Origin: a virus
Reading direction: 5' to 3' (one strand)
Length of the DNA stretch: 26,249 nt
Virus record (IMG/VR): IMGVR_UViG_3300042306_000142
Coordinates: 1 to 26,249 of that record
The position numbers were made by a program, and so were the translations under genes. This document shows, one piece after another, positions 1-25,461 of the stretch. Each line of letters begins with the position of its first letter. Position 1 is the stretch's first letter. Under the pieces are notes generated by a model. It did not search any database. It saw nothing but the letters and a program-made list of their open reading frames with translations, and was not told the DNA's origin.

Positions 1-3000
1 TTTCATTAACTTCTATTGTATTGTTAGTAACATTAGAAACGTTTGTAGTGTTGTTAACAGTCGTAAAGGTGTTATTTACTGTAGTATTCTGAATTGTTCC
101 AACTGTTCTCTCGCCGATGCGATTTGCAGTAGTATTGTTTTCAGTCACCGAACGAGAATCACTAACATTAGTGAAAGATACTTTTGCCTCTCTCGTAGAA
201 ACAACAGTTCCCTCGACCACCTGCGAAAGACCATTCGCGGAGAATGAATTTGTCGCTGAAGTTGTAATGAATGGTGATCTATTAAATGCATCGTCGCAAA
301 CTCTAAAGTTCTTGGTTCCTGTTCTAAACGTACCAGCAGGAATTTTAAACTGAATTGCAAGTTCGCCATTGGCATCAGTAACCAACGGAGCACCATAAAC
401 ACCCGTTGGACCAGCAATAGCATATGCAGAATATTCTGCTGGATCAGTCGGTGATGCAGTTAGAGCAGCACTTGATAGTGGGCGACAATGTGCTGTAACA
501 TCAATACCGTCAAAGAATGGATAGATTCTTGTCAGAGGTTTTAATCTCTTAGTTTTAACTGTAATTGTTACACTTCTCATATATGGAATGATAGAAGCAT
601 TTGTTACGCGATTACCAAGATCCCTCGTCGTAGTTTCTGGAGTAACACCCATAGTCACACCTTGACGTGTTTGACGCTGCGTAGTGGTTGTCGTTGAGAT
701 CTGAATTTGCTCTTGGAAAAGAGTGTCACCAGATACGCGAGTCTGTCCACCTGTTGTAGTTGTATCGGTCGAAATCGAACGACCAGTTACGATGTCCTGC
801 CAGTCATTCCATTGAGTTCCCCATGCATTTGCCATGGCAGCAAAGTTGTCGTAGTTGCCGTCAAAGTTTACTGCGAGGTCAGGAAGTTGTGCAGTATCTG
901 TCCAGTTATCAACTGGAGGATCTAGGGTCATATCTCCAATGTAATTGAATAGGAGTTCTCCAACGCAGTTTCTAGACTTCGAAGCAAATTTATTCTGAGT
1001 AAGAACACCATAGTTATATGGAAGTGTTAGAAGATCGCCTGTCTTTTTTACGCCAATAGAATTTGCAGAATCAAAAATTAGATCAACATTTTCGATATTA
1101 AAGTAAGGACGGAGTTCTTGATTGACTGCATCAATCGAGCAACTATAGTTGAGATCCTTTGGATTACCTACATTGTGTCCAGTAAACGCATCTACTAGAA
1201 TACCATGTTTAAATCTATTCAACATTTCATCTGTGGCACTCGGAATAAACAGAGACTCTGTTGCTTTTTCGAGAAGTGTCAGAGTAGTATAATATTCTAG
1301 GCGAGAAACACGTTGTTCAATTGCACCAATATCGCGCATTGTATAGCGTCGATTATCAAGGGTGCGGAAAGTTACACCATATTCATTGCGCCCTGTTGAC
1401 TTTGCAACATTAGGAGCAAGCGAAGGATATGGTGGAATTGTAACGATCGCAATACACATCGCGTTTTCTGGAGTAAGTGGTTCGACAGGAGTTAGTGATG
1501 GAGTTCCACTAACTGCGCTGAACACTCCATGGTCATCCATTACGATCTTGTCTTTACGACCAACGTAATATTCGTAGTTGATATTAATTTCTTGCTCAGG
1601 ACGAGGAATAGTAAGATTACTCAATCCCAATGGTTTAAATATTGTTCCAGTTGAATTTGCTGGATTGACTGGTACTGACTCGATTGTTGCAAATGTAGCA
1701 GGTGTAACTGAGTCGGTAATTCTTACTCGGAAGTCCAGCGTGTCGCGTAGGTCATACGATTCACCAGTCGTTGGTGAAGTATAAATTGGAATCTCGTATG
1801 TCTTGATAAAGGCACTATCAGGTTCTGCACTATCCAATACATCATATGAGTCGACCGCGAAGTAACCAGCATTCGTTGACAATGTGACATGAGTAAAGTA
1901 ACTAAACTTGACAATCAGATTAAAACCTTCCAGGGAAGGTGCATTATTTGCTTGTATAAGTTTAGCAAGTTCGTATGTGTTATCACGCTGACCATTATCC
2001 AACGTATATTGCGAGGTGATATCAGTACCTGTTGTTACAGCGGCCGCACGTGTAGTGGTTCCAACTGGTGCTCTGTAAACAGCATCAACAGAGAATACGT
2101 CAGCAACGCCCAAGTTTAATGACGCAGCGCCATCTACCTTGAAGAAGTATTGATTATTGTTACCTGTACCCGAAAGATTTATTGCTGAACCACCCGAAGA
2201 TGCAGAAACCGAAAATGTATTCGTCCCAAGATTGATTGCGAAATATTCAGTTCCATCAGTAAGTCCGCCGATCGGAGTTCCGCCATTCGCTTTATACTTG
2301 ATTTTATCATTCGTTTGCAGACCGTGATTATTATATGTAATAACTTCAGTGCTAGTATTTACTCCAGTAGTAGGAATTTTTAGTGAAAGGTCAAACGCAA
2401 CATGTCTCGCTCGGTTCAGAGTTTTCCTAAGAGGCGCAGCAAAGTTTGCTTCGACTGTAGAATATACTGTAACCGTATCAGAGAAACCAAGTCCAGAAAA
2501 ACTAATAATTTGCGAAGAAGGATCCTGTGCATCAACTGTGCCTACTGTTAGATCAACAATTGCACCACCAGTATCTCGAACCATCAAAAGATTTCTATTG
2601 ATGTAAGTTTCAATCGCATCATTTTGATCTTGGATAAAGAACTCATTGCCCGATAGTGTAATGCTACCAACACCCGATGTTATATCAATATTTTCATATA
2701 CCTTAGTATAATATAACGATGTTTCATAACTACCAGAAGGAAATGGTGGTTTGATTGTCTTAGTAGCACGCGATGGCATTCTATAGAGTAGTTTATTATA
2801 TTGTGATGACTTCAATACAGATTCAACAACGTCAGCATAACCATCGTTGGTTCCACTGGTCGAGTAATACAATCCACTAACGTCGGCGAAGTCTCCTGCT
2901 GTCATCTGAACATCGTAAACGTAGATGTTATACACTGCAGTTGCAGTTCCTGGAGCATCAGGTCCAACATGTTCAATGTGACGAACACGAGCAGTACCAA

Positions 3001-4291
3001 TTTCAGTACCTTGAACTGCTGTCTGTGAACCAGAAACGCCGTTTTGCGGGTCGGTGCGTAGAGAAATCTTAGAACCATCTAGTGGCAGAACACCCTTATA
3101 GTCTGTTACTACAACATAGTTGCCATAAGCAGAACTAATGGGAACACTATATTTCTGTACGGTGTCAATACCCTTTTCAGTAATAGCATATTCTGTCTGG
3201 CGAGTTTCGTACTCATAACCGCGAACATATGCTTTACCCGCTTCAAGACCGACTGCAAGAAGAAATTCATCACCACCAAGTTCTTCGGTATAAAGACCGT
3301 TATTGCCACCAACATTTAGATGTTCGCGAACAAGAACAGGAAATGCCTTTGTCGTATAATTACCTGATTCATCATATGTTCTGCGTGCTAGATTGTCGCC
3401 AAGTTTGGCATAGATGTCAGAGGTATGTGTTCTATTAAGACCACCAGAAACAACTGTTGCAACTTCATAATATCCGTCTGGGATTGTATCCCCAATATTG
3501 ACGAAAATTAGGTCAGTCGATACATAGTATCTATCTGCGCCAGGAGCAGCAAAGTTATATGTGCCTTGTGCTGGATCGAGAAGAGTCTCGCCCACTACAC
3601 CGTCTCCCGTGTCTAATACTTGCTCATCTGCACCAACGCATACACTACCAGTTGGGTTGCCAGTATACTTTGAAAGATAAATTGTCTGCGAACTATGGAG
3701 AATAAATTTACCGTCGATATAAAGAATACCTTCACCGACAGTCATGCGAGTGGCACGACCCCAATAGTTATTTGTCAATACGTCAGTATCAACTTCAAGT
3801 GCTTGAACAGTAAATATATCATCTGCTAGAGGGTCTGTATCCTCTGGGTCTGGAGTTGGCAAAACTGTAAGAGTTTCTGCGCCAGTGAAGTGGACAGCAT
3901 TTGTGCTACCATCACCGCTTGTGTATCTCAGGTAAAGAGTTCCTGGATCTGTTGCTGTTGCTTCAATTGCGTCTACGATTACTGCTGTAAGATTGTTACC
4001 GCCCTCGACTGTTCTACCGATATATTCTGGCAGTCGTGCATTTCCAGCAGCATTTGCATCAATTTTTACATATGATAATTCATTATCAATCTGAACGTCG
4101 CAACCTGAAACGATCGCGCCATTCTTGAAAATATGGTCGCCGAACTTATTAACTTGATTTTGGAGAATGGTTTGTAATTGTGTAAGTTCGCGAGCCTGAA
4201 CCGCATATCCAGGTTTGAAGAGAATTCTATGAAACTTGTTCGCCTCATCAAAGTCATCATAATACGGAGATGTATTTAAATTCAGTGCCAT
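1..4291 (-). CDS. Giant DUF4815-type virion structural protein, C-terminus cut by window edge
   Basis: An uninterrupted minus-strand frame runs from an ATG at 4291 to the left edge with no stop, giving at least 1,429 residues. I checked the frame at several places (near 3200, 2050, 920 and 2) and it stays open. The N-terminus (about residues 8-55) has the pattern YYDDFDEANKFHR, then LFKPGYAVQARELTQLQNQ, then FGDHIFKNG, which is the hallmark of the DUF4815 family of T4-like and other myovirus structural proteins. Around residues 650-695 is a 'HGL...IGGLTDGTEYF' beta module that also occurs in gp8. The last visible part is rich in Asn and Thr (NTTVNNTFTTVNNTTN). It lies downstream of gp8, where T4 has genes 9-12, so a peripheral baseplate or fibre-attachment role is inferred. 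The start is supported by a TAGGA ribosome site 6 nt upstream. Family assignment is from memory of the motif; the exact role is unknown. Confidence 0.85.
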   Translation of the reverse strand, partial: MALNLNTSPYYDDFDEANKFHRILFKPGYAVQARELTQLQTILQNQVNKFGDHIFKNGAIVSGCDVQIDNELSYVKIDANAAGNARLPEYIGRTVEGGNNLTAVIVDAIEATATDPGTLYLRYTSGDGSTNAVHFTGAETLTVLPTPDPEDTDPLADDIFTVQALEVDTDVLTNNYWGRATRMTVGEGILYIDGKFILHSSQTIYLSKYTGNPTGSVCVGADEQVLDTGDGVVGETLLDPAQGTYNFAAPGADRYYVSTDLIFVNIGDTIPDGYYEVATVVSGGLNRTHTSDIYAKLGDNLARRTYDESGNYTTKAFPVLVREHLNVGGNNGLYTEELGGDEFLLAVGLEAGKAYVRGYEYETRQTEYAITEKGIDTVQKYSVPISSAYGNYVVVTDYKGVLPLDGSKISLRTDPQNGVSGSQTAVQGTEIGTARVRHIEHVGPDAPGTATAVYNIYVYDVQMTAGDFADVSGLYYSTSGTNDGYADVVESVLKSSQYNKLLYRMPSRATKTIKPPFPSGSYETSLYYTKVYENIDITSGVGSITLSGNEFFIQDQNDAIETYINRNLLMVRDTGGAIVDLTVGTVDAQDPSSQIISFSGLGFSDTVTVYSTVEANFAAPLRKTLNRARHVAFDLSLKIPTTGVNTSTEVITYNNHGLQTNDKIKYKANGGTPIGGLTDGTEYFAINLGTNTFSVSASSGGSAINLSGTGNNNQYFFKVDGAASLNLGVADVFSVDAVYRAPVGTTTRAAAVTTGTDITSQYTLDNGQRDNTYELAKLIQANNAPSLEGFNLIVKFSYFTHVTLSTNAGYFAVDSYDVLDSAEPDSAFIKTYEIPIYTSPTTGESYDLRDTLDFRVRITDSVTPATFATIESVPVNPANSTGTIFKPLGLSNLTIPRPEQEININYEYYVGRKDKIVMDDHGVFSAVSGTPSLTPVEPLTPENAMCIAIVTIPPYPSLAPNVAKSTGRNEYGVTFRTLDNRRYTMRDIGAIEQRVSRLEYYTTLTLLEKATESLFIPSATDEMLNRFKHGILVDAFTGHNVGNPKDLNYSCSIDAVNQELRPYFNIENVDLIFDSANSIGVKKTGDLLTLPYNYGVLTQNKFASKSRNCVGELLFNYIGDMTLDPPVDNWTDTAQLPDLAVNFDGNYDNFAAMANAWGTQWNDWQDIVTGRSISTDTTTTGGQTRVSGDTLFQEQIQISTTTTTQRQTRQGVTMGVTPETTTRDLGNRVTNASIIPYMRSVTITVKTKRLKPLTRIYPFFDGIDVTAHCRPLSSAALTASPTDPAEYSAYAIAGPTGVYGAPLVTDANGELAIQFKIPAGTFRTGTKNFRVCDDAFNRSPFITTSATNSFSANGLSQVVEGTVVSTREAKVSFTNVSDSRSVTENNTTANRIGERTVGTIQNTTVNNTFTTVNNTTNVSNVTNNTIEVNE

Positions 4292-20644: not shown

Positions 20645-21217
20645 ATGGCAAATCCTTTCGAAAACCTTCGTGCTAAAGCTGGGGATGGACAAAAGTCTAT
20701 CTGGTGGTATATGCGCAATGCTCAAAAATTAGTCGGCGCGAGTTTATCGCCGAATACAGCAATGCAATCTGATATTGGAGAACTAAAGTCAAACATCGAA
20801 ATCGGTTCGATGTATATGTACTATTACGATCCAAAATGGAAAAACGAATTACCATTCTATGATGCCTTCCCGTTAGTGCTGCCATTCGGTCCAGCACCTG
20901 GAGGGTTTTATGGTATCAATCTGCACTACGCACCATATCTGGTAAGAGGAAAGATTCTAGGCGAGTTGCTTGATTACACAAATTCAAAAACATTTAGTCC
21001 CACTACCAAAATTCAAATGTCGTATCAAATGTTACAGAGCATTAGCACTGCAAATGAGGTTAAACCTTGCATCAAGCATTATTTGACAACTCATGTGCAA
21101 TCAAGATTTATGAAGATAAATCCCATCGACTGGAAAAGTGCCATATTTTTACCCCTTGAAGCATTCCAGAAAAAAACAAAAGAAGAAGTATTCAGAGACT
21201 CGAGGAGTAAATACTAA
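20645..21217 (+). CDS. Probable DNA end protector protein, gp2-like
   Basis: The product is 190 aa. Its core, 'YYYDPKWKNELPFYDAFPLV' then GFYGINLHYAPYLVRGKIL, 'KPCIKHYLTTHVQSRFMKI' and FLPLEAFQKKTK, is a pattern I know from proteins of marine T4-like phages labelled DNA end protector (gp2). T4 gp2 is longer (274 aa), so homology to T4 gp2 is not certain from sequence alone. The position next to gp4, as in T4 2-4, supports the name. gp2 caps the DNA ends in the head and protects them from RecBCD. The ATG is 5 nt after the gp4 stop; its last codon overlaps the next ATG (TAATG). No classic ribosome site is seen. Confidence 0.55.
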   Translation: MANPFENLRAKAGDGQKSIWWYMRNAQKLVGASLSPNTAMQSDIGELKSNIEIGSMYMYYYDPKWKNELPFYDAFPLVLPFGPAPGGFYGINLHYAPYLVRGKILGELLDYTNSKTFSPTTKIQMSYQMLQSISTANEVKPCIKHYLTTHVQSRFMKINPIDWKSAIFLPLEAFQKKTKEEVFRDSRSKY

Positions 21218-21921
21218 TGGCAGCGGCAGGCAACGGGATACAAGAATTTCTCGCAGAAGTGGGTGCAAAGGACTTAGCACGTTCACACAGATTCGAAGTA
21301 ATTCTCGGCACACCGAAATGTATGAATGGTTTGGAAAATAGCATTACCAATGCACTTCTAAATATTCCTGGAGTTCCAGAAGCATCAGAATTTCTTCTGG
21401 GACAGAAAAACACTCCCGAAAATAATAACACTGCTTATACATCACTAATGTGCGAAGAAGCAATCTTTCCTGGATTAGTGATGGGTTCAAAACCATTCAA
21501 GTATAATAACCGTGTCGAGAATCGAGCAACTTTTCTAGACTATACTGGCGAATCTGCAACATTTACTTTCCTTTGTGATAAAGACTGGAAAGTAAAGAAA
21601 TACTTCGACACATGGATGCGCAAGATCGTAAATCCTGAGAAACGATATGTTGGATATTATGAGGATTATACGTGTCAAATCGTTTTAAATTCACTGGATC
21701 AAAACGACCAAGTAACACAAACATGGATCATGGAAGAAGCATGGCCTAGAGCAATGGCACCTGTTTCATTAGCATGGTCCAATACACAATTCGTTAGACT
21801 GCCAATAACCTTTACATTTAGAAATTGGAGACTGCAGCAAAATGTCGGATCAAGAATGGAAAATGTGCTTGGTGGACTGGCTGGCGATACATATGCGGAC
21901 AGAGGGCAACCCCTCGGATAA
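21217..21921 (+). CDS. 54: Tail-tube-fold protein, probable baseplate tube initiator gp54
   Basis: The product is 234 aa. It has the gp19/gp54 tail-tube layout: an N-terminal 'FEVILGTP' strand, a middle 'CEEAIFPGLVMGSKPFKYNN' loop, 'ATFTFLCDKDWKVKKYFDTW' and a long strand pair ending 'RLPITFTFRNWRLQQ'. In T4 gp54 (320 aa) the equivalent segments are 'KMPENRLSYETDWNYN', 'PLVISFRMDSEACNYRAMQDW' and 'TTFDVTFAYRV'. gp54 tops gp48 and is the platform for gp19 tube rings. A gp19 tube protein is the main alternative, but gp19 genes normally sit next to the sheath gene gp18, which is absent here. Its ATG overlaps the upstream stop. Confidence 0.7.
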   Translation: MAAAGNGIQEFLAEVGAKDLARSHRFEVILGTPKCMNGLENSITNALLNIPGVPEASEFLLGQKNTPENNNTAYTSLMCEEAIFPGLVMGSKPFKYNNRVENRATFLDYTGESATFTFLCDKDWKVKKYFDTWMRKIVNPEKRYVGYYEDYTCQIVLNSLDQNDQVTQTWIMEEAWPRAMAPVSLAWSNTQFVRLPITFTFRNWRLQQNVGSRMENVLGGLAGDTYADRGQPLG

Positions 21922-21938: not shown

Positions 21939-22619
21939 ATGTTACCTGTTATGGAAACACCAACGTTTTACGTTGAAATGATTGGAAGTAAAGAGCGAGT
22001 TAAATTCAGACCATTCTTAGTTAGAGAAGAAAAGTTGCTGATCATGGCATCAGAATCTGAAGATCAATCTGAAATGTTAAACGTGATGCAAGAAATTGTC
22101 GACGTTTGTAGTTTCGGTAAATTGGTAGGCAAAGATCTCCCGTTCTTTGAACTCCAAAATATCTTCATTAAACTTCGCTCTGAATCTATTGGTCAGATTA
22201 CCGAGTTTAATTTGGTATGTGGTGAGTGCGGTCATAAGACTGCAGCGGAACTTGACTTGACAACAATTAAACCCACCATTACCGAGGGTCATACAAATAA
22301 AATCGATTTCGGAAACGGTCTTGGGGTTATTATGCGGTATCCAACTTCGATCGATATGGGAGGCGATTCCGTAACATATGATTTAGTAGTTTCTTGCATC
22401 GATAGTGTCTACACTACAGATGAAGTCTTCACAACTAAAGATATTCAACGAAAAGACGTAGAGCAATTTGTTGACAATCTAACCTCTTCACAGTTTAAGA
22501 AGATTACAGAATTCTTTCTTTCTATGCCCAGAGTCGAACATAAGATTGAGTACGATTGCTCGAACTGTTCAACAAATAATGTAATTTTCCTCGACGGTGT
22601 AGAAAGTTTTTTCGAATAA
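21939..22619 (+). CDS. 26: Baseplate hub / tail-assembly chaperone gp26
   Basis: The product is 226 aa (T4 gp26, 208 aa) of the T4_baseplate family. It starts 'MLPVMETPTFYVEMIGSKER' then VKFRPFLVREEKLLIMASES, the family signature. Four cysteines, C94-GE-C97 and C207-SN-C210, would make a zinc ribbon, as in many family members. T4 gp26 is classed with baseplate hub assembly. By position, directly before the tape-measure gene, and by its -1 frameshift signal it corresponds to the lambda gpG-type tail-assembly chaperones. Its last codons (VESFFE) contain the slippery T TTT TTC. The start has a strong AGGAGA ribosome site. Confidence 0.92.
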   Translation: MLPVMETPTFYVEMIGSKERVKFRPFLVREEKLLIMASESEDQSEMLNVMQEIVDVCSFGKLVGKDLPFFELQNIFIKLRSESIGQITEFNLVCGECGHKTAAELDLTTIKPTITEGHTNKIDFGNGLGVIMRYPTSIDMGGDSVTYDLVVSCIDSVYTTDEVFTTKDIQRKDVEQFVDNLTSSQFKKITEFFLSMPRVEHKIEYDCSNCSTNNVIFLDGVESFFE

Positions 22620-22644
22620 CCCTTTCTCATGACAACATGAGGAA
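22607..22644 (+). promoter_or_regulatory. -1 programmed ribosomal frameshift signal
   Basis: Three elements lie in order. The slippery heptamer T TTT TTC is at 22607-22613, in the right phase with the gp26 codons TTT TTC. A 9-nt spacer (22614-22622) holds the gp26 stop. A stem-loop lies at 22623-22644, with 9 pairs (eight Watson-Crick, one G-U): left arm TTTCTCATG, loop ACAA, right arm CATGAGGAA. Heptamer type, spacing and stem fit established -1 frameshift signals. The ATG of the gp51-like frame (22637) is buried in the right arm. Confidence 0.75.
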
Positions 22645-22795
22645 TCATTATAAGACCAACTTTATTTTAATGCACGAACATAAATATTCGTTAAGTGAAC
22701 TTGAAAATATGATTCCTTGGGAAAGGGAAGTTTATGTTGGTTTATTGGCAATGCACTTAAAAGAAAAAGCAGATAAGCAAAGGCAGCAACAATAA
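22637..22795 (+). CDS. Short gp51-like frame, likely C-terminal part of the tail-assembly chaperone
   Basis: This is a 52-codon frame in the -1 phase relative to gp26. The product has 'YKTNFILMHEHKYSLSELEN' then MIPWEREVYVGLLAMHLKEK and a Lys/Gln-rich end. The 'L.ELE.M.PWER..Y..LL....KE' pattern is typical of the short second frames of tail-assembly chaperones and of small gp51-type hub assembly proteins annotated in marine T4-like phages. T4 gp51 is larger (249 aa), and T4 also places 51 right after 26. Its ATG has no Shine-Dalgarno and is sequestered in a hairpin, so expression as a frameshift extension of gp26 is more likely than independent initiation. Its stop overlaps the tape-measure ATG (TAATG). 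Confidence 0.7.
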   Translation: MRNHYKTNFILMHEHKYSLSELENMIPWEREVYVGLLAMHLKEKADKQRQQQ

Positions 22796-25461
22796 TGGAA
22801 ACCAAGTCCGCATCAGAAAGATTTGCGAGGGTAATAGAAACCGCCAAGAACACTTCGAGTTCTGGTGAAAAACCAATGCAATCTGAAGAAAAGGACAAAT
22901 TGTTCTCTGAAGTTCGCAAGGTTCTAGATCTTAATAAGAATAGACCTGCTGATAAGGAAGCATCTGCAAGATTGGTAAATAGTTTTATTCAATCTATCGA
23001 AAGGAATACATCTGATGTAATCCGCACAATGGAATCCCAAGACAAGAAACTCATGGAGGATACGTTGGATGCAATTACAAAATTGCAATTCAAGACGGTC
23101 GACGAGTTTAAGAAATCACTCAAAGACATCAATGACCTTGCATCAAAAATGATTGCTAGAAGCGAAAGTGGTGGTCCAGGACAACTTGGTGAAATTGGTA
23201 AAGAGTTACAACAGCAAGCTCTAGGCGAACGCTTCAAGGCAGAAGGATTAACACTAGAAGGTAAAGACGACACATTCGTCAATCGTCTGAAACAAGAATT
23301 GTTTGGAAACTCAAAAGAACCTGGAAGAGAAGGCACGCCAACTAAAGGATTCAGAGAAGGTTTCAAAAACGCTGGCAGCGAATTCATGGGCGGATTCAAG
23401 AAAGGATTGACGCCGCAGAGCGGAGTTCTTGGGAGCATATTCAAATCTCAAGAATCCCGTCGCGAAGAAATTCGTAATGAAACCAATCAATCGAATGAAA
23501 GACTTTCAGAAGTAGAACGTTTAAAGAAAATGTTTTCTGAGGCAATCGGTAGCAAAACAGAAACCAATAAGTCTACCAATAATAATTCAACGACGACCAG
23601 TCAGTCAACCAATGACGTTAATAAGTCAACGACGACCAATCAGTCTGCCAATGACGTTAATAAGTCAACGACGACCAGTCAGTCTTCGTCAAATGACACC
23701 GCAACAGAAACGAATCAGTCTGCAAGTCAATCTGTTGCAGAATTTACATCTGTAGATAAAATGGTAAATCTTACTGAAGAACAAAAGAAGATTTTAGAGC
23801 AGCAAGGCATCAAACCATCTTCCGAGAAAGATTTCTCGTATAGAAAAGATGGTAAACCTGTTTCAATGGAAGAGATTAATAAAACTCTGGAAGCAAAACA
23901 CAAAGAATCTATACAACCAAAGGTAAAGATTCAATCTGCAAAAGGTGGAGTTGTAGTAGGAGATAAGAATGATGTTGCATCTATCTTAACTGAAATCAAA
24001 CAACTCATCACAGAGATTAAAGATAAGTTATTCAAACGTGCTGGTGTTGCACCTTCTGGCAAAAAACAGTTAGACCCAAGTTCCAGCGTAAAAGATGTAA
24101 TGACTCGCAACAAAATAGCACAGGCAGAAGCAGAACAAGCATCTGCAGACGCCCAAAAACGTGCTGAAAATATTGATAAACAAAACGCCGAAAAGGCATC
24201 TGCAACAGTAGAAGCGAAAGAACAATCTACCCCGAAAGTAGTTATCGGCGGAACAGAATCTGCAAACACTAGAGTCACACCAGAAACTCCTACAACTGGT
24301 AACGGTGAGCAAGATGAAGGTGGAGGATCTCTGTTTGGCGGGATCGCTGCTGGGTATGCTGGGTTCAAAGCTGGCGGTCAGGGTCTATTTAAAAAACTAG
24401 AAAATCAAAGATACTCTAGTCGTCTCTCCAACTTTGGTGCAAAAGCAGGTGGTGTATTCGAGAGAGGCACCAATGCAGTAGATGGTGCTGTTGATCGAGT
24501 AAGGGGAACTGCAAATACTCTGAGAACAAAGGCGACTGACCTTGTTAAAAACAGAGGTTTACGAGCAGAACAATTATTAGACAAGAATGGTAGACCTCTT
24601 GCTGGTGCTGCTAAGCAGTCTCGAATTGGTAAAGTGATGCGAGATCGTATTGCGGGAGTTAGTGAAAGCGGTAAAGGGATGTTTAATAAAGCATCTCAAT
24701 TTATCGGCAAAAACACCGCAAAGGGTGCCACCGCTGGTAAAATTGCTGAGAGTGGTATGGGCATGCTCAGTAAAGCAAAAGGTGCTATCAGCAAGGTCGC
24801 AGAAAAGGGAATGTCTAAAGTTGGTGGCAAGATTGCTACAAAGGGTGCTGCTAAAATAGGCGCAAAGGCAGTTGGTAAATCTCTACTGAAAAAGATTCCA
24901 ATTATTGGTGCAATTGCTGGTCTTGGGTTTGGTGCCATGCGTGCACTACAAGGAGACTTCGTTGGCGCTGCAGGTGAAGTAGCGTCGGGTGTCGCCTCTA
25001 CTGTTCCTGGAGCGGGAACTGCTGCGTCATTTGCAATTGACGCTGGTCTTGCAGCAAGAGATATTTCCAGAGCAGGTAATGAAGACTCAACAGAGGGTTC
25101 AACTGAATCCGTCGACGGAGCGAGAGCAGAAGGTGGTCCAGTATCTGCCAAGGGTTCATATCTGGTTGGTGAAAATGGACCAGAATTATTCACACCTAAT
25201 ACAGCAGGTTCAATTAAAACTAATCAAATTACCAAGAGCAATTTGGAAACTGGGAATAATACTGCTGCGGCGAATTTAAAAGAAATGACAGATAGTGCTA
25301 GAGAAGATACTGCGCCAGTTATTAATGTTCCACCACCAACTGTAATTCAACAACCTGCTGCACCGCAACAAAATAATGGTAGCGGATCTCTACCGATGGA
25401 TACGGTCAGAACTGAAGACAGTAGTTGGCAAAGGTTCCAGAATAAAAGATCTTTCGGATAA
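22795..25461 (+). CDS. 29: Tail tape measure protein, gp29-like
   Basis: The product is 888 aa, longer than T4 gp29 (590 aa). Residues 1-260 are charged and helical, with coiled-coil character. Residues 265-303 hold a 13-residue repeat. A Gly/Ala/Lys-rich segment (about 510-705) contains many G..M...K....K.A repeats. A hydrophobic stretch near 705-745 (KKIPIIGAIAGLGFGAMRAL, then Ala/Gly-rich) could enter the host membrane. Near 775-805 is 'GGPVSAKGSYLVGENGPELF' followed by TPNTAGSI, a motif very common in tape measure proteins. A Pro/Gln-rich tail ends the chain. The tape measure sets tail length and is threaded inside the tube. It follows the chaperone frames directly and ends 1 nt before the terminator stem. 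Confidence 0.85.
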   Translation: METKSASERFARVIETAKNTSSSGEKPMQSEEKDKLFSEVRKVLDLNKNRPADKEASARLVNSFIQSIERNTSDVIRTMESQDKKLMEDTLDAITKLQFKTVDEFKKSLKDINDLASKMIARSESGGPGQLGEIGKELQQQALGERFKAEGLTLEGKDDTFVNRLKQELFGNSKEPGREGTPTKGFREGFKNAGSEFMGGFKKGLTPQSGVLGSIFKSQESRREEIRNETNQSNERLSEVERLKKMFSEAIGSKTETNKSTNNNSTTTSQSTNDVNKSTTTNQSANDVNKSTTTSQSSSNDTATETNQSASQSVAEFTSVDKMVNLTEEQKKILEQQGIKPSSEKDFSYRKDGKPVSMEEINKTLEAKHKESIQPKVKIQSAKGGVVVGDKNDVASILTEIKQLITEIKDKLFKRAGVAPSGKKQLDPSSSVKDVMTRNKIAQAEAEQASADAQKRAENIDKQNAEKASATVEAKEQSTPKVVIGGTESANTRVTPETPTTGNGEQDEGGGSLFGGIAAGYAGFKAGGQGLFKKLENQRYSSRLSNFGAKAGGVFERGTNAVDGAVDRVRGTANTLRTKATDLVKNRGLRAEQLLDKNGRPLAGAAKQSRIGKVMRDRIAGVSESGKGMFNKASQFIGKNTAKGATAGKIAESGMGMLSKAKGAISKVAEKGMSKVGGKIATKGAAKIGAKAVGKSLLKKIPIIGAIAGLGFGAMRALQGDFVGAAGEVASGVASTVPGAGTAASFAIDAGLAARDISRAGNEDSTEGSTESVDGARAEGGPVSAKGSYLVGENGPELFTPNTAGSIKTNQITKSNLETGNNTAAANLKEMTDSAREDTAPVINVPPPTVIQQPAAPQQNNGSGSLPMDTVRTEDSSWQRFQNKRSFG
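23587..23703 (+). repeat. Three tandem 39-bp repeats in the tape measure gene
   Basis: Units start at 23587, 23626 and 23665 and encode STTTSQSTNDVNK, STTTNQSANDVNK and STTTSQSSSNDTA. The first two units are nearly identical at DNA level, so this looks like recent slippage or duplication. A related but degenerate Asn/Ser/Thr-rich stretch lies just upstream. The encoded linker is hydrophilic and probably disordered. Confidence 0.9.

Follow-up and report, generated by a model that had tools for sequence, protein, structure and literature searches.

The window analysed here, positions 1 to 26,249 of IMG/VR virus record IMGVR_UViG_3300042306_000142, carries a tube-like gene, a putative tail assembly chaperone (TAC) gene and a large ORF in that order (Table 1). 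The candidate chaperone, gp26, matches the PF12322 T4_baseplate (gp26/gp51) family at 188.4 bits against a gathering score of 24.5 (E 1.9e-55) and phrog_150 of PHROGs at E 8.5e-57. The −1 frame that continues from its 3′ end matches phrog_634, “baseplate hub assembly catalyst” (PHROGs, E 3.4e-25), as well as the last 48 positions of phrog_150 (235–282 of 282, E 6.8e-7), so that phrog_150 already spans both parts. The start codon of the large ORF overlaps the TAA of the −1 frame (22793–22795) by one base; in HTVC008M, a gene annotated as putative tail tape measure likewise lies downstream, with one 333-bp gene in between. Inside this presumed tape-measure ORF, positions 22942–23130 match PF12322 below threshold (17.7 bits, cut-off 24.5), probably by chance. 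Rfam gave nothing above a gathering score over the window, and a sequence search of solved structures returned one chain only, a ribosomal protein at E 0.32.

Table 1. Positions of the putative chaperone gene, its recoding elements and the neighbouring genes in the window.
Feature	Positions	Strand	Basis
Tail-tube-like protein gene, upstream of gp26	21217..21921	+	phrog_45, PHROGs E 8.5e-32
gp26, putative short tail assembly chaperone (TAC-N), 226 aa	21939..22619	+	PF12322, phrog_150, predicted fold like HK97 gp13
Shine-Dalgarno-like stretch 5′ of slip site	22591..22600	+	duplex energy −5.9 kcal/mol, generic anti-SD
Slippery heptamer T_TTT_TTC	22607..22613	+	sequence; T_TTT_TTN in 157/157 distinct contexts
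0-frame stop TAA of the putative short form	22617..22619	+	sequence
9-bp hairpin, 4-nt loop, 9-nt spacer from heptamer, lineage-specific	22623..22644	+	−9.4 kcal/mol, z −2.75
−1 frame extension, 60 codons + stop, putative C-terminal part of long chaperone (TAC-NC)	22613..22795	+	phrog_634, phrog_150
52-codon “gp51” ATG frame, inside the −1 extension	22637–22795	+	sequence
888-codon ORF directly downstream, presumed tape-measure gene	22795..25461	+	named by position only

The gp26 ORF ends in AGT TTT TTC GAA TAA, and its T_TTT_TTC lies two codons before the stop in the X_XXY_YYZ phase of a canonical −1 programmed frameshift heptamer, as the initial annotation had pointed out. That annotation had further described a 9-nt spacer, here GAATAACCC at 22614–22622, followed by a 9-bp stem-loop, and both are present: the stem arms TTTCTCATG (22623–22631) and CATGAGGAA (22636–22644) pair over 9 bp including one G·U and enclose the loop ACAA, with a folding energy equalled by 5 of 200 shuffles. 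Its third element, an open −1 frame that leads into a 52-codon frame overlapping the start of the next ORF, is found as well, beginning with CGA at 22613 as the first codon after the slip and staying open from the slip site to its TAA. The window has 25 stop-to-stop frames that are 120 codons or longer; in-frame T_TTT_TT occurs twice in them, and only the copy in gp26 lies at a frame end.

The −1 frame extension matches 660 phage records (tblastn, E up to 1). Related loci were collected from protein searches with the −1 frame, in each of which the best 80 of at least 594 confirmed matches were kept, from searches with gp26 of two Straboviridae and from annotated phage records; the 179 entries gave 157 distinct contexts once 22 duplicate contexts were dropped, the window being identical to L001, dropped as a duplicate and represented in its cluster by L006. 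The site was placed by −1 frame homology in 172 of the 179 entries, with an extension back by 1–2 codons where the match began at residue 2 or 3; in the other 7 (L086, L190–L195) a T-run close to the stop of gp26 served to find it, so that these are not independent tests. T_TTT_TTN is kept in the same phase in every one of the 157 contexts, the base after the six T's being C in 146, T in 7, A in 3 and G in 1, and the run is present in all clusters defined by −1 domain identity (40 at 70%, 16 at 60%). The 0-frame stop follows 0 or 1 codon past the slip site in 154 contexts and 8 codons past it in 3. The background was taken from the rest of the 40 cluster representatives: their stop-to-stop frames of 200 codons or more in any frame, not all of them genes, contain 177 xFF tripeptides, of which 10 are encoded by the same pattern. 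Four contexts, including that of Rhizobium phage AF3, encode Phe-Leu at the site (TTTTTTA in 3, TTTTTTG in 1) and yet retain the T-run, which argues that what is conserved is the DNA run, not the amino acids. The −1 domain of DLP6, used as a scan query, found no relatives.

Of the elements flanking the heptamer, the hairpin differs between lineages, and a Shine-Dalgarno-like stretch on the 5′ side is shared by many relatives. Averaged over the 36 of 40 clusters usable for this purpose, the 38-nt stretch just 3′ of the slip site has the lowest folding energy of 177 offsets, and it reaches −8 kcal/mol in only 11 of the 36. Dinucleotide shuffles put the mean z at −0.5 and 9 of 40 clusters below −1, values that are rough because our home-made shuffle mixes poorly; for the hairpin score, mononucleotide shuffles average 3.67 (sd 2.41) and the 40 clusters 5.35, a mean that 24% of shuffles reach individually. 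Aligned by eye with the window, all 10 near relatives show a weakened hairpin, with one stem pair lost in L002, L004, L005 and L006, one pair lost in mid-stem in L018, and two or more lost in L008, L009, L014, L015 and L045. Near relatives have the hairpin in weakened form and many lineages lack it, so that a universal hairpin was rejected in favour of a lineage-specific one. The initial annotation had spoken of a complete signal, had proposed looking for heptamer and hairpin in relatives, and had named the loss of both where the two frames persist as evidence against its reading: the signal is complete in the window, downstream RNA structure included, and the heptamer is kept in all 157 contexts, whereas the hairpin is weakened or missing among relatives and is no part of the conserved signal. 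Upstream, a Shine-Dalgarno-like (SD-like) stretch at most 16 nt 5′ of the heptamer has the strongest mean duplex energy of 204 offsets (−6.1 against an overall mean of −0.6 kcal/mol; 39 of 40 clusters usable) and reaches −6 kcal/mol or lower at the best offset in 17 of the 39. The window's own stretch is no obvious SD, and part of the signal could reflect a conserved E-G-L protein motif.

A model of gp26 (pLDDT 89, 53 sequences) is predicted to adopt a TAC-like fold. Its best matches among solved structures, ranks 1–3 of 977 chains aligned, are 3FGX, HK97 gp13 (2OB9) and YqbN (3KLU), at Z 7.3, 7.0 and 6.6 with the next at 4.8, each over 83–85 residues within gp26 residues 1–94, where a Z under 8 can reflect a common arrangement. 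All three are termed tail assembly chaperones in the excerpted text of PMC9603447, and their place at the head of the list leads us to assign the gene to this class. Foldseek found no PDB match to the gp26 model under E 0.001; among predicted viral structures, where 62 matches reached E 0.001 or better (best 50 of 62 listed), it picked out gp26-type phage baseplate hub proteins. For a T4-type gp51 model (14-row alignment, pLDDT 83), no TAC was among the 50 matches listed, and none reached Z 5.

In family scans of T4-type proteins from 3 phages, the full length of the PF12322 profile is matched by T4 gp26 (208 aa, E 8.8e-64) and by T4 gp51 (249 aa, E 3.9e-52). The two resemble each other (BLASTP E 2e-6; profile against profile E 1.5e-21), and the gp51 profile also finds gp26 of the frameshifting phages (E 1.4e-16). 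The C-terminal part is found in T4 gp51 alone, where a profile matches the −1 domain at E 4e-10: T4 gp26 ends ...GLKEFFELL at the slip-site position, while gp51 continues into the domain that the others would reach by frameshifting. The slip-site position of T4 gene 26 reads TTC TTT, so that the T-run is gone, and no T_TTT_TT was found at the gp26 DNA end in the 6 of 13 T4-type loci inspected. On sequence grounds, T4 gp26 and gp51 are thus paralogues matching the short and the long form, and T4 would use two genes in place of a frameshift.

We consider it very probable that gp26 and “gp51” of the window are a single tail assembly chaperone gene, expressed in a short and a long form by −1 ribosome slippage. 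That gp51 is instead a separate small protein, begun at the internal ATG 22637 by re-initiation past the gp26 stop and with the T-run incidental, has in its favour that this ATG, at codon 9 of the −1 frame, lies 17 nt past the stop, and that 10 of 14 annotated records of frameshifting phages (L081–L084, L086–L089, L091–L093, L095–L097) carry a separate gp51-like CDS; the remaining four (L082, L088, L096 and L097) have none, and a joined product is annotated in none of the 14. The −1 frame itself points the other way. Its homology sets in directly after the slip site, ahead of the first ATG, and in 39 of 40 clusters (149 of 157 contexts) the open frame upstream of that site holds neither ATG nor GTG. 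Across the 157 contexts, the codon at which an ATG first appears takes 12 different values between 2 and 33, although codons ahead of it are conserved across the 40 clusters (R1 in 28, H6 in 31, L9 in 36, N16 in 34 and F17 in 37). Because the first ATG lies at codon 19 or later in 23 clusters, a free product would often be without these conserved residues; counting GTG and TTG too, the first possible start is that late in only 16. With the T-run invariant and both parts forming one polypeptide in T4, we regard a separate gp51 as highly improbable. Still less probable, in our judgement, are two forms produced by RNA polymerase slippage: an invariant homopolymer run would suit it, but polymerase slippage needs no codon phase, and NNT TTT TTN is kept in 157 of 157 contexts. 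Six T's are also short for transcriptional slippage.

The conserved heptamer, together with −1 homology that begins at the slip site ahead of any ATG, makes “gp51” most likely the frameshift-made C-terminus of gp26. The initial annotation had held that gp51 is made only as an extension, which is likely, while the internal ATG could still yield a shorter free product. Its broader suggestion, a G/GT-type chaperone pair linked by frameshifting, is supported by the heptamer, by −1 homology from the first codon, by the predicted fold and by the T4 counterparts; judged from sequence, the signal and the conserved open −1 frame would provide the frameshift-linked short and long form near the 3′ end by which a TAC is recognised. 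We propose that most ribosomes would stop at 22617 and release the 226-aa short form, and that a minority would slip back one base on U_UUU_UUC, with P-site UUU and A-site UUC both re-pairing one base upstream, and so extend the product to a long form of roughly 285 aa. If lambda G/GT is a guide, the domain common to both forms may coat the tape-measure protein, and tube subunits may be recruited by the C-terminal extension. We infer the slippage itself, its rate and these binding roles. The annotation of the gp26/gp51 pair is thereby corrected to one gene, and the “baseplate hub assembly catalyst” gp51 gains a concrete role.

An unrooted tree of 68 rows sets the T4-type gp26 and gp51 (24 rows) apart from 44 frameshifting rows with support 98/94, and the frameshifting Straboviridae XZ1, EniLVp02, Aeh1 and AS-zj fall on the frameshifting side together with IMG/VR contigs L191 and L194. 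Two Pseudotevenvirus-type gp26 rows group with gp51; two separate duplications were considered and set aside, a single gp26 clade not being rejected (AU p 0.174). The T4-like IMG/VR contig L106 was excluded from the tree for its broken gp51 frame, which breaks after 120 codons in a homologous stretch (2501–3246) of 746 bases, no multiple of three; the break is either a sequencing error or a broken gene. A third, distant relative of gp26 may exist in gp28, given the weak profile similarity between the two (probability 32, E 0.00048; T4 genes 26 and 28, entry L085) and a match of T4 gp26 to phrog_1140, “baseplate hub distal subunit”, at E 9.4e-4. Since frameshifting is the more widely spread arrangement, we infer, from a tree that is unrooted, that it is ancestral and the duplication derived. 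We lean towards a scenario in which a two-form frameshift is ancestral in Kyanoviridae, part of Straboviridae and other T4-like phages, with an invariant U_UUU_UUN, help from an upstream SD-like stretch and hairpins repeatedly gained and lost, and in which the T4 lineage escaped once by gene duplication; parts of this scenario are probably already in print. If true, that duplication would account for the “hub assembly catalyst” gp51, which would be the long chaperone form. It appears to offer a clear natural case of a recoding site replaced by gene duplication.

In phage P2, a −1 slip late in gene E, which immediately precedes the tape-measure gene, yields the short product E and the longer E+E′. 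Lambda gpG/gpGT, as excerpts of PMC5009743 set out, is likewise a short product with its longer counterpart, separated by a −1 slip towards the 3′ end of a gene that adjoins the tape-measure gene on its upstream side. In contrast to both, gp26 has a further region of strands and Cys pairs past its TAC-like first 90 residues. For T4 itself, a review (PMC3004832, in excerpt) places gp26 and gp51 among the hub assembly chaperones and describes gp51 as required and absent from the particle; it also reports genetic studies supporting gp26 in the hub, a poor fit with a chaperone that leaves. The arrangement in T4-like phages was taken by the initial annotation to be undescribed, which does not hold, as their TAC genes were identified by Vladimirov, Gautam and Davidson (Virology 2022, as cited in excerpts of PMC10885494 and PMC12846349), some of these phages pairing one short TAC gene with a longer fusion gene (as cited in PMC10885494), and poly-T sequences are given as known −1 signals in their TAC-N genes (PMC12846349). 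Beyond this, titles and abstract openings among the literature matches listed contained no account of a gp26/gp51 frameshift. The mechanism outlined here is thus a well-supported further case of the described TAC frameshift, with a core biology that, as far as the citing excerpts convey it, was largely described in 2022. A further parallel, the TAC locus of Pseudomonas phage Adele and the Vandenendeviridae, for which PMC12846349 (in excerpt) proposes a −1 frameshift at an invariant GTTTTT at the TAC-N end, belongs to another family, whereas the invariant motif in the window's lineage is T_TTT_TTN.
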